Assembly: GCA_947500415.1 (NCBI GenBank)
Contig: CANMRT010000001.1
Coordinates: forward strand, 1,452,982 to 1,516,981
Direction: 5' to 3'
Length of the DNA stretch: 64,000 nucleotides
Source: an uncultured Roseicyclus sp.
Lineage (GTDB): Bacteria; Pseudomonadota; Alphaproteobacteria; Rhodobacterales; Rhodobacteraceae
This document shows positions 5,100-17,320 of this stretch, piece after piece. Position 1 is the stretch's first letter, and every line of letters starts with the position of its first letter. The translations under genes were made by a program, and so were the position numbers. A model generated the notes under the pieces. The model made no database searches. It had not been told where the DNA came from and saw nothing but the letters and a program-made list of their open reading frames with translations.

Positions 5100-5135
5100 T
5101 ACCAAATAATAGAGTCCAACTTGGAGGGAAAAACG

Positions 5136-6131
5136 ATGAAGAAACTGACACTTGCGGGGGCCGCACTTCTGGCCTCGGGCGGTATGGCCGCGGCTGACGG
5201 GCACCTCGATGAGGTGAACTTGCAGCTTCAGTGGGTCACCCAGGCGCAATTCGCAGGCTACTATGTGGCGCTAGAGAATGGCTACTATGAGGACGAAGGT
5301 CTGGCCGTGAACATCATTCCCGGCGGGCCGGATATTGCCCCGCCGCAGGTTCTGGCCGGTGGCGGCGCGGACGTGATGCTGAATTGGATGCCATCGGCGC
5401 TTGCCGCGCGTGAAGGTGGTCTACCGGTGGTCAACATCGCGCAACCGTTTGTCCGCTCGGGCCTGATGCTGACGTGTTGGGCCGACAGCGGCATTGTGGA
5501 ACCTGCCGATCTGGCCGGACACACGGTCGCGCATTGGTTCTTCGGAAACGAATATCCGTTCCTGAGCTGGATGTCGCAGCTTGGCATCGGCGTTGAAGGC
5601 GGCGACGACGGTGTGACCTTGCTGCAGGCCGGTTTCAACGTTGACCCGCTGATCCAACGGCAGGCTGATTGCATGTCGACCATGACCTACAACGAATATG
5701 GTCAGGTCCTGGATGCCGGTGTGTCGGAGGATGAGCTGGTGACGTTCCGCTATGAAGACTATGGCGTTTCGACGCTGGAGGATGGCATCTGGGCGCTGGA
5801 AGAGAATCTGGAAGACCCTGAGTTCGTTGATCGGATGACCCGCTTTGTCCGCGCCTCCATGGCCGGTTGGACCTGGGCCGCTGCGAACCCCGACGACGCG
5901 GCGATGATCGTGCTCGACTATGACGAGACCGGCGCCCAGACCGAGGCGCACCAGCTGCGCATGATGGGTGAGATCGCGCTTCTGGTTGAGGGTGGCGATG
6001 GCCGCCTGGACGAAGAGGCCTATCAGCGCACGGTTGATACGCTTCTGGCGGGTGGCTCGGATCCAGTGATCTCTGCCGCGCCTGAAGGTGCCTTTACGCA
6101 TGCGATCACGGATGCGGCGCTGGCCGAATAA
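5136..6131 (+). CDS. ABC transporter substrate-binding protein, NMT1/THI5-like
   Basis: Signal peptide MKKLTLAGAALLASGGMAAA followed by NMT1-type LQWVTQAQFAGYYVALENGYYEDEGL. Confidence 0.93.
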   Translation: MKKLTLAGAALLASGGMAAADGHLDEVNLQLQWVTQAQFAGYYVALENGYYEDEGLAVNIIPGGPDIAPPQVLAGGGADVMLNWMPSALAAREGGLPVVNIAQPFVRSGLMLTCWADSGIVEPADLAGHTVAHWFFGNEYPFLSWMSQLGIGVEGGDDGVTLLQAGFNVDPLIQRQADCMSTMTYNEYGQVLDAGVSEDELVTFRYEDYGVSTLEDGIWALEENLEDPEFVDRMTRFVRASMAGWTWAAANPDDAAMIVLDYDETGAQTEAHQLRMMGEIALLVEGGDGRLDEEAYQRTVDTLLAGGSDPVISAAPEGAFTHAITDAALAE

Positions 6132-6150: not shown

Positions 6151-6186
6151 AATTGGCCTCGTGCGATGGATCGTGCGGGGCCTTTT
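6151..6186 (+). terminator. Probable intrinsic terminator after the ABC operon
   Basis: GGCC...GGGGCC imperfect dyad followed by TTTT. Confidence 0.45.
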
Positions 6187-6210
6187 CATGCGATGCGCCC
6201 CTGCGGGGGT

Positions 6211-6627
6211 TTAACGTCGGATGTCGACGGTTGGGTTCACAGGCTCCGCTGTTCCGCTCTGATAAGGCTCAGCGGCAAGGGCTGGGTCGCGCGTCGGCGC
6301 CGCAGCTACTTGCTGCGGAATGTCCGAGGGTTCCTCAGCCTCGGGATCCGGCTCGGACGGTTCCAGTTGTGCCACGGCGACCATCGCAAGCGATTGGCGC
6401 GGCGGGTCGGGTGGCACGGGCAGGTCGTCGTTGTCGCCGACCTGAAACACATCAAGCGGTTCCGGTCCCTGGCGCGCCACTGCACTGGGATCGCCGGTTT
6501 TCGCGGCAGCAGTCACGGGGTTGGCCGTTTCCGGGCGACCCGTCATGGCTTGATCCGGCAAACGGGCCTCTTTCGGGGCCAGCGGCACGGCGATTTCCAC
6601 CCTCGGGGGGGCATTGGTGATATCCAT
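6211..6627 (-). CDS. Hypothetical Pro/Ala-rich, probably disordered protein
   Basis: 138-aa ORF of low complexity; no recognised domain. Confidence 0.5.
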   Translation of the reverse strand: MDITNAPPRVEIAVPLAPKEARLPDQAMTGRPETANPVTAAAKTGDPSAVARQGPEPLDVFQVGDNDDLPVPPDPPRQSLAMVAVAQLEPSEPDPEAEEPSDIPQQVAAAPTRDPALAAEPYQSGTAEPVNPTVDIRR

Positions 6628-6765
6628 CTCTCGCTCTCCTCAATTGCAAAATGCACTGAGTTTCCCACGACATGATTTTTTATCGGTCGTGTGTAAACGC
6701 AAGGTTAACGGCGAGCCGTGGAGTGAGCGGCTTTTGACGCAAATTGTGGCGTGCGGAGGGGCGGC

Positions 6766-14921: not shown

Positions 14922-15548
14922 ATGATGAAGATCCGTTTCATCCCCGCAATCATCCTCGGCGCAGCGCTGGCAGTGTCCGGTTGTGTTGGAGGCACAGACG
15001 TGTCGCGCGACCTTGGGTTTGACGCACCGCCCGTGATCCAGAACGTCGCCATCCAGGATTGGGACGTCGTGGCCGTTGAGGTCGAAGTGCCCTATACCTT
15101 GAGCGTTTCCGAGGCCAACACCATCAAGCCGCGCGCTGATATCGTTTGGCGCGAAGACCCATATGGCGACCGCCATCAACAGGTCGATGCCCTGATGACC
15201 GAGGCGCTTGAGCCCGTCTTTGAAAGCGTCACCGGCGCGATCCCGGTCGTTGTCACCCTCGACGTGACGCGGTTCCATGCCCAGACCCAGCGCGTGCGCT
15301 ACTCGAACCTGCCCTCGGAGCAGGAAATCGAATTCGTATTGACCGTCCGCCACGCTGAAACTGGTCAGATCCTGTCCGGACCGCGCGACATGGACCTGAC
15401 CTTCCCGGCCCTTGGTGGCCAGGATGCCGTTGCTGCAGATGCCCGTGGCGAGACGCAGCGCGTCCGGATCACGCAGCGCTTGCAGAATTGGGTGATCGAA
15501 GACTTCATCGGCCCGGCGCAGGACCTGTTGCTGGCCGAAGCAGGCTAA
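14922..15548 (+). CDS. Lipoprotein, DUF6778-like
   Basis: Lipobox signal (FIPAIILGAALAVSGCVGG). Confidence 0.75.
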   Translation: MMKIRFIPAIILGAALAVSGCVGGTDVSRDLGFDAPPVIQNVAIQDWDVVAVEVEVPYTLSVSEANTIKPRADIVWREDPYGDRHQQVDALMTEALEPVFESVTGAIPVVVTLDVTRFHAQTQRVRYSNLPSEQEIEFVLTVRHAETGQILSGPRDMDLTFPALGGQDAVAADARGETQRVRITQRLQNWVIEDFIGPAQDLLLAEAG

Positions 15549-15578
15549 GCCTTCCCCCCCATTGAAGAACCCGGTAGA

Positions 15579-15605
15579 GGGGGCGCCATGACAGCGCCCC
15601 CTTTT
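15579..15605 (+). terminator. Terminator-like hairpin overlapping the rlmI start codon
   Basis: GGGGGCGC-CATGACA-GCGCCCCC-TTTT; perfect 8-bp stem; ATG (15588-15590) in the loop. Confidence 0.65.
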
Positions 15606-16784
15606 CCCGTTTTGCGCCTGAAACCAAAGGCCGACGCCCGCCGTATCCGTTTTGGCCATCCTTGGGCTTGGGCCGATGACCTCGTGCTTGATCGGCGCTC
15701 AAAGGCCATTCCCGCTGGCGCTTTGGCGGTTTTGCAGGACGCAGATCGCGCGCCGATTGGGCTGGGCGTGGCAACGGTTGAGGCGCGCATCGGGTTACGT
15801 GTGCTGGATCGTAACCCGGACGCGGTGATTGATCGGGATTGGTTGGCTGAAAAGGTGACGCGTGCGCTGACCTTGCGCGAGGCACTTTATGACGCGCACT
15901 TCTATCGCATGATCCATGCCGAGGGTGACGGCCTTCCGGGACTGATCGTCGACCGCTTCGGCGATACGCTGGTTGTGCAACCCAACGCGATCTGGCTGGA
16001 GGAACGGCTGGACGATCTTGTTGCGGTGCTGAGCGATGCCACCGGCTGCTCCAACATCCTGAAAAACGGAACGTCGCGCGCGCGCGCTGCTGAGGGCCTG
16101 CCGGAGGAGATGGTCGTTTTGGCCGGTGATGCGCCCGAAGGCCCGATTGAGGTGCCGATGAACGGGGCCACCTACATGGCGGACGTCATGGGCGGCCAGA
16201 AAACGGGGCTCTTCTACGATCAACGCCCGAACCATGCTTTCGCGGCGCGGCTGGCCGAAGGTGCGCGCGTTCTGGATGTTTTCAGCCACGTGGGGGGCTT
16301 CGCGTTGGCAGGTCTTGCAGCGGGCGCAAAATCGGCACTTGCTGTCGATGCCTCCGCGCCCGCATTGGCATTGGCCGACGCCGGTGCAGAGGCGATGGGT
16401 GCGAGCGACCGCTTCACGACACGCGCGGGTGACGCCTTCGCGGTGATGGAGGCGCTGGCCGGGGAAGGCGCCCAATTCGAGCTGGTCATCGCCGACCCAC
16501 CGGCCTTCGCGCCGTCCAAACCCGCGCTCGAAAAGGGCCTGCGTGCCTATGAACGTGTGGCCCGACTGGCCGCGCCTTTGGTGGCCGAGGGCGGAACTCT
16601 GATCCTGTGTTCCTGTTCCCACGCAGCCAGCCTCGACAAGTTCCGCGCGTCTTGTCTGCGGGGCATTGGCCGCGCAGGACGTGAGGCGCGCGTGATCCAC
16701 ACAGGCTTTGCCGGGCCGGACCACCCGGTGCACCCAAGCCTGAGTGAGACCGGCTACCTCAAGGCCATCGCGTTCCGCCTATGA
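15588..16784 (+). CDS. rlmI: Class I SAM-dependent rRNA methyltransferase (RlmI-like)
   Basis: N-terminal PUA-like PVLRLKP...GHPWAWADD, GLFYDQRPNH, VLDVFSHVGGFALAGLA, VIADPPAFAPSK. Confidence 0.92.
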   Translation: MTAPPFPVLRLKPKADARRIRFGHPWAWADDLVLDRRSKAIPAGALAVLQDADRAPIGLGVATVEARIGLRVLDRNPDAVIDRDWLAEKVTRALTLREALYDAHFYRMIHAEGDGLPGLIVDRFGDTLVVQPNAIWLEERLDDLVAVLSDATGCSNILKNGTSRARAAEGLPEEMVVLAGDAPEGPIEVPMNGATYMADVMGGQKTGLFYDQRPNHAFAARLAEGARVLDVFSHVGGFALAGLAAGAKSALAVDASAPALALADAGAEAMGASDRFTTRAGDAFAVMEALAGEGAQFELVIADPPAFAPSKPALEKGLRAYERVARLAAPLVAEGGTLILCSCSHAASLDKFRASCLRGIGRAGREARVIHTGFAGPDHPVHPSLSETGYLKAIAFRL

Positions 16785-17320
16785 TCGCGGTGCTTGACGC
16801 CAATGTCCTTTACCCGACGGTGCTGCGTGAAGTGCTGTTGGGCTGTGCGGGGCGGGGCCTCTTCCAGCCGATCTGGTCAGACCGCCTGCTTGAAGAATGG
16901 CGCCGCGCCGCTGATCGCAACGGGGGTGCGGCGGACGCCCAGATCGCCGCTGCTGAAGCTGCGCGCGCGAACCGCCGCTTTCCGGAGGCGCTGGTGTCAC
17001 CCGGCGATGAGGCGCCCCTTTGGCTGCCCGATCCTGCCGACATCCACGTCCTTGCCACCGCTATCGCTGCGCGTGCGGAAACCATCATCACCATGAACCT
17101 GCGCGATTTTCCGGCGCGAGAATTGTCAGGCCACGGGGTTGTGGCACGGCATCCGGACGCTGTTTTGATGGATCTTTGGCTGGAGCATGCAGATTCGGTG
17201 GAGGTCGTCGTGCGCGGCGTGCATGCGGAGGCGGAGCGGCTATCGGGCGAGGCGCTTGCCCTTCGGGCGCTGATGAAACGGGCGCGGTTGCCACGGTTGG
17301 GAAAGGCGCTTTCGCGCTGA
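16781..17320 (+). CDS. PIN-domain protein
   Basis: VLDANVLYPTVLREVLLG, LPDPADIHVLATAIAARAETIITMNLRDFP; ATGA overlap with rlmI. Confidence 0.85.
   Translation: MIAVLDANVLYPTVLREVLLGCAGRGLFQPIWSDRLLEEWRRAADRNGGAADAQIAAAEAARANRRFPEALVSPGDEAPLWLPDPADIHVLATAIAARAETIITMNLRDFPARELSGHGVVARHPDAVLMDLWLEHADSVEVVVRGVHAEAERLSGEALALRALMKRARLPRLGKALSR

Follow-up and report, generated by a model that had tools for sequence, protein, structure and literature searches.

A conserved hairpin over the start codon of an RNA methyltransferase gene: a probable terminator laid over a predicted leaderless promoter

Introduction

What does a strong RNA hairpin do at the boundary of two genes when the start codon of the second gene lies in its loop? 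The question is raised by a window of 64,000 nucleotides (the whole stretch of DNA analyzed here) from an uncultured Roseicyclus sp., in which a perfect 8-bp GC stem, a CATGACA loop and a TTTT tail occupy positions 15579-15605. The original prediction described this hairpin as having the form of an intrinsic terminator for the upstream lipoprotein gene, and further proposed that it could act as an attenuator and ribosome-binding site (RBS) switch for an rlmI-like gene whose ATG sits in the loop and whose purine-rich RBS sits in the left arm. Its sequence and coordinates proved exact, and the 398-aa ORF offers no earlier start than this ATG, as no in-frame ATG, GTG or TTG lies upstream. Here we ask which of these functions fits the hairpin, using folding, the neighboring genes, and the corresponding region of 120 homologues.

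The Gene Boundary and its Hairpin

The features of the locus are collected in Table 1. The upstream co-directional gene encodes a DUF6778 lipoprotein, and its TAA stop codon lies 30 nt 5′ of the core stem. The downstream gene turned out not to be rlmI; it fits the RSP_2647 family of RNA methyltransferases, and the identification as RlmI proper (23S C1962) was rejected with a score of 154 bits against 712 for the RlmI equivalog model. No mention of RSP_2647 was found in the open-access literature searched. The start of the following PIN-domain gene overlaps the methyltransferase stop codon as ATGA (16781-16784), an overlap that is also seen in 49 of the 120 family loci.

Table 1. Coordinates of the features at the gene boundary (positions in the window).
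Feature	Position	Strand	Details
DUF6778 lipoprotein gene (PF20569), upstream, co-directional	14922..15548	+	Pfam 178 bits
-35-like element of the methyltransferase promoter	15552..15557	+	TTCCCC
-10-like element	15575..15580	+	TAGAGG, no T at -7, 17-bp spacer
Hairpin left arm	15576..15586 (core 15579-15586)	+	AGAGGGGGCGC, core GGGGGCGC; folding, covariation
Predicted transcription start	15586..15588 (~15587)	+	6 bp past the -10 element; inferred
Hairpin loop	15587..15593	+	CATGACA, methyltransferase ATG at 15588-15590
RSP_2647-family RNA methyltransferase gene (NF046099)	15588..16784	+	660 bits vs cut-off 600
Hairpin right arm	15594..15604 (core 15594-15601)	+	GCGCCCCCTTT, core GCGCCCCC
U-tract	15602..15605	+	TTTT
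RSP_2648-family PIN-domain protein gene (NF046100)	16781..17320	+	243 bits vs cut-off 170

The GC core is extended to 11 bp by pairing of AGA (15576-15578) with TTT, including one G-U pair, and the right arm is at the same time coding sequence for residues 3-6 of the methyltransferase N-terminus. In RNA folding the stem is formed at about 100% in read-through RNA and is near-certain in any RNA that holds both arms, where the purine-rich left arm is fully paired and the AUG, being in the loop, is not. A stable GC-rich stem of 11 bp with a short loop of 7 nt is what an intrinsic terminator calls for. The stem is followed by TTTT and then CCCGTTTT, and a simple terminator scan missed the hairpin because it needs five T in eight bases and the first eight bases past the stem read TTTTCCCG.

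The 4.0 Mb genome has no second copy of the exact 23-mer. Strong hairpins are no rarity in themselves, with 10 in the window and 141 in 800 kb, and a start codon falls in the loop of 2 of these 10 and of 5 of these 141. Across 864 kb, six start overlaps were found at five hairpins with a T tail, mostly involving weak or GTG ORFs, and a genome-wide habit of placing starts in loops was discarded, given the few other cases in the 864 kb. One of them is the start of a DctQ gene (L153:13237-13791), where CATCGCCGCGG-CCATGC-TTGCGGCGATG carries the ATG in its loop and is followed by TTCTTT. The window itself holds another strong hairpin at 6154-6182, GGCCTCGTGCGA-TGGA-TCGTGCGGGGCC-TTTT, directly 3′ of a 336-aa transporter-type ORF (5121-6131); no Pfam family matches the ORF that starts within it (6166-6675), which is unlikely to be a gene.

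Conservation and Covariation of the Stem

For the comparison we took the upstream regions of 120 homologues: 12 belong to the genus, and each of the others represents a different genus of the taxonomic family; a homologue search at the level of the order returned only this same family. To be called a hairpin, a stem across the ATG needed 8 bp or more and a folding energy of -15 kcal/mol or lower. The hairpin with the ATG in its loop is kept in all 12 loci of the genus. Across the family the arms vary in sequence and the pairing is retained, as seen in the arm pairs GGGGGCGT/ACGCCCCC (L018), GGGGACGGC/GCCGTCCCC (L034), AGGAGGGCTGC/GCAGCCCTCCT (L069) and AAAGCGGAGGTC/GACCTCCGCTTT (L102). With the register fixed around the loop, 536 of 696 cells are paired and 114 show changes on both sides, versus 319-436 paired cells and 23-40 both-sided changes in slid registers; at loci where the upstream neighbor is a divergent edd gene, 148 of 384 cells are paired. 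Arms folded with their own partner reach -21.8 kcal/mol, compared with -15.4 kcal/mol for arms swapped between loci. The slid registers and the arm swaps control for base composition, with relatedness not fully controlled.

Conservation of the stem in relatives had been proposed as a check of the original prediction, and it was borne out, with compensatory changes, in 63 of the 74 loci where a DUF6778 homologue lies upstream. Judging from this covariation the hairpin is no chance palindrome, and compensating mutations have preserved the arrangement of a hairpin over the start in much of this bacterial family. The case for coincidence would be that a G-rich discriminator beside C-rich codons (Ala-Pro-Pro) pairs by composition alone, and swapped arms do still fold, at -15.4 kcal/mol on average. 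Against this stand the covariation, which is specific to one register and refutes chance unless the alignment is wrong, the divergent-edd loci, which have the same promoter and lack the hairpin, and the N-terminal residues, which themselves follow the presence of the hairpin. We regard coincidence as extremely improbable.

The protein N-terminus typically reads MTAP(P/S)FP where the hairpin is present, and MT(D/E) followed by variable residues where it is not. T is enriched at +14 and +15 in hairpin loci (0.73 and 0.81) versus hairpin-less loci (0.32 and 0.25), and 19 of the 63 hairpin-bearing relatives have no T directly past the last G-C pair.

The Hairpin Follows the Upstream Gene

A DUF6778 homologue lies directly upstream on the same strand in 74 of the 120 family loci. 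The hairpin tracks this neighbor, being present in 63 of these 74 and nearly absent, in 4 of 32, where edd is divergent (Fisher's test, 1e-12), which supports the proposal that the structure has the form of a terminator for the lipoprotein gene. At one of the four hairpin-bearing edd loci (L049) a co-directional frame apparently ends just upstream, as judged by eye. A 75th DUF6778 locus (L059), recognized by Pfam and standing outside the 74, also carries a hairpin.

The exceptions among the 74 are informative natural variants. In L062 and L114 the start hairpin is absent and is replaced by a separate conventional terminator 5′ of the promoter; in L039 and L045 the hairpin and its T-run are at the same place and the ATG has shifted downstream, and L042 and L057 resemble these two less cleanly. 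The relatives thus amount to a natural gain and loss experiment. On the best methyltransferase tree, 24 independent pairs could be compared: hairpin and upstream gene go together in 16.2, disagree in 1.2 and tie in 6.6 (median p of 3e-4 in a sign test). Hairpin states are interleaved on this tree, which was built by a quick method and has many weak forks; the well-supported branches alone leave five pairs, 3.4 pointing the same way and 1.1 the opposite way, which are too few for a test.

Eight loci have some other co-directional frame upstream (class C), and seven of them lack the hairpin, most without an obvious substitute, an absence that a terminator-insulator model leaves unexplained. In L090, with a small unrelated frame upstream, a variant hairpin GCCCCGCC-GCTTGCTA-GGCGGGGC lies just 5′ of the ATG and overlaps the -10 element. 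At six loci without DUF6778 (L052, L067, L086, L088, L112, L113), palindromes of the GTTAGCGCTAAC type are found between edd and the methyltransferase gene, and these look like operators of sugar regulators.

A Promoter-Like Pair Before the Start Codon

Overlooked by the original prediction was a promoter-like pair, TT(T/C)CC and TAnnnn separated by 17 bp, at -35 and -12 from the ATG, of which the -10-like element overlaps the left arm of the hairpin. In the 98 loci that offer a single ATG candidate, positions -35 and -34 are T in 87% and 79%, respectively, and C-rich positions follow; with the same loci anchored at the ATG, TA is enriched at -12/-11, and the spacer is near background. This geometry is present in 63 of the 74 DUF6778 loci and in 23 of the 32 divergent-edd loci, compared with 0.4 and 0.15 in shuffles, and at 10 of 619 other starts of the same genome. 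The motif was picked after viewing the sequences, and these figures accordingly describe its strength rather than a blind test. In both classes of loci the pair would set +1 at the start codon.

Start-site maps have established a 17-bp spacer and a distance of 6 bp from the -10 element to the start, and more than 60% of alphaproteobacterial promoters have no T at -7 (PMC8407463). The spacer, the 6-bp distance and the missing T at -7 all fit these published rules. The -35 element, TTTCC or TTCCC, is unlike the usual TTG of the same maps (PMC8407463). A general class of TTTCC -35 elements was considered for this genome and rejected, in view of no enrichment at -35 of other starts, where TTGAC/TTGM is enriched. 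That enrichment falls exactly 35 bp 5′ of the start codons (864 kb of the same genome, 676 called starts), suggesting that the organism has a set of leaderless genes. Leaderless RNAs are known in alphaproteobacteria (PMC7566282).

The predicted start, at about 15587, lies in the loop of the hairpin, and therefore the methyltransferase's own mRNA would be leaderless and without the left arm. The purine-rich string that had been read as an RBS coincides with the conserved -10-like element, a caution that a Shine-Dalgarno (SD)-like string 5′ of an ATG can be promoter sequence.

Which Function Fits?

We consider it probable that the hairpin is the intrinsic terminator of the DUF6778 gene and that it shares its DNA with the -10 element, the start site and the ATG of the methyltransferase-PIN operon, forming a compact one-way insulator. 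A polymerase arriving from upstream would make both arms, and the hairpin with its short U-tract would end the transcript; in any RNA that reads through, the purine-rich region would be fully paired and the AUG held in a closed 7-nt loop, and translation would be poor. A polymerase starting from the operon's own promoter would begin in the loop (~15587) and give an mRNA that lacks the left arm, therefore cannot form the hairpin, and would be translated leaderless. Folding of RNA from 15587 leaves the AUG open. A leaderless mRNA would make sense here because the inhibitory arm is left behind. The role is likely insulation from upstream transcription and not a sensing switch, and the second gene apparently owes its expression to its own promoter alone, with residual transcription from upstream kept out.

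The regulated switch of the original prediction would instead have a long lipoprotein-gene transcript carry the methyltransferase gene, with the hairpin answering to read-through or ribosome occupancy. A stable T-tailed hairpin with a purine-rich left arm does form in upstream-derived RNA, yet the conserved promoter places the predicted start at the ATG and is retained where hairpin and upstream gene are both gone, and of the 32 divergent-edd loci, which mostly lack the hairpin, only 10 contain the SD core. No mutually exclusive antiterminator fold was found in the 15500-15660 RNA and there was no Rfam match, so that an attenuator or riboswitch was set aside as quite unlikely. Somewhat less unlikely, though still not favored, is that the main effect of the hairpin, as in phage T4 gene e, is to block translation of upstream-derived RNA, with weak termination at this site. 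The start codon is centered in the loop at most loci and many relatives have poor U-tracts, including those without a leading T; however, T is enriched past the stem, and L062, L114, L039 and L045 have a terminator-type hairpin with a T-run away from the start codon. The palindrome also overlaps the -10 element and the predicted start site, as would be expected if it were a DNA operator through which a regulator controls the methyltransferase promoter, but its arms differ widely between genera (GGGGGCGC, AGGAGGGCTGC, AAAGCGGAGGTC) with pairing kept through changes on both sides, and its loss accompanies that of the upstream gene rather than that of the promoter. Conserved pairing without conserved arm sequence led us to reject the operator, which we hold to be very improbable.

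Comparison with Known Systems

The closest parallels are found in phages. In T4 gene e and I-TevI, RNA made from a late promoter is, owing to the position of that promoter, without the 5′ strand of an inhibitory hairpin, and a promoter inside a start-region hairpin, as predicted here, is shared by T4 gene e (lysozyme), soc, 49, I-TevI and Aeh1 mobE (PMC3014915, PMC2988022). In those systems, and by folding also at this locus, upstream RNA closes over the translation start and RNA from the proximal promoter, without the 5′ strand, does not. Different here are the chromosomal gene pair with no early/late sigma switch known, the terminator-type U-tract, the predicted leaderless proximal mRNA, and the position of the start codon in the loop. 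What would be new in relation to T4 is a chromosomal gene boundary and a hairpin of terminator form, the likeness being one of working only.

With an ordinary intrinsic (Rho-independent) terminator the hairpin shares a GC stem of 8-11 bp, a short loop, a U-tract, if a short one, and a position 30 nt past the stop codon. It differs in lying on the -10 element, start site and first codons of the next gene, and therefore constrains the N-terminal residues of the protein, and in having a U-tract that is cut short by codons. IS10/Tn10 is protected from external promoters by a fold-back in read-through RNA. There, as here, read-through RNA hides the start and transcription from the element's own promoter begins within the repeat; our locus differs in that it is a single gene boundary with no mobile element, and the terminator role is apparently primary. 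The promoter-like pair resembles alphaproteobacterial sigma-70 promoters without the T at -7 in its TAnnnn -10 element and 17-bp spacer, and departs from them in having TTTCC/TTCCC, not TTG, at -35 (PMC8407463).

Implications

One short stretch of DNA appears to serve under three constraints at once, as a terminator stem, as the -10 element and start site of a promoter, and as codons, and it offers a clear case in which the N-terminal sequence of a protein is apparently set by a terminator. As a tentative generalization, which we think possible but doubtful, the fused terminator and leaderless promoter would be one conserved element that blocks read-through twice, by termination and by closure of the start codon, constrains the first residues of the protein, and is kept through sequence turnover as long as the co-directional neighbor exists; such an element may be a general means of gene packing in the family.
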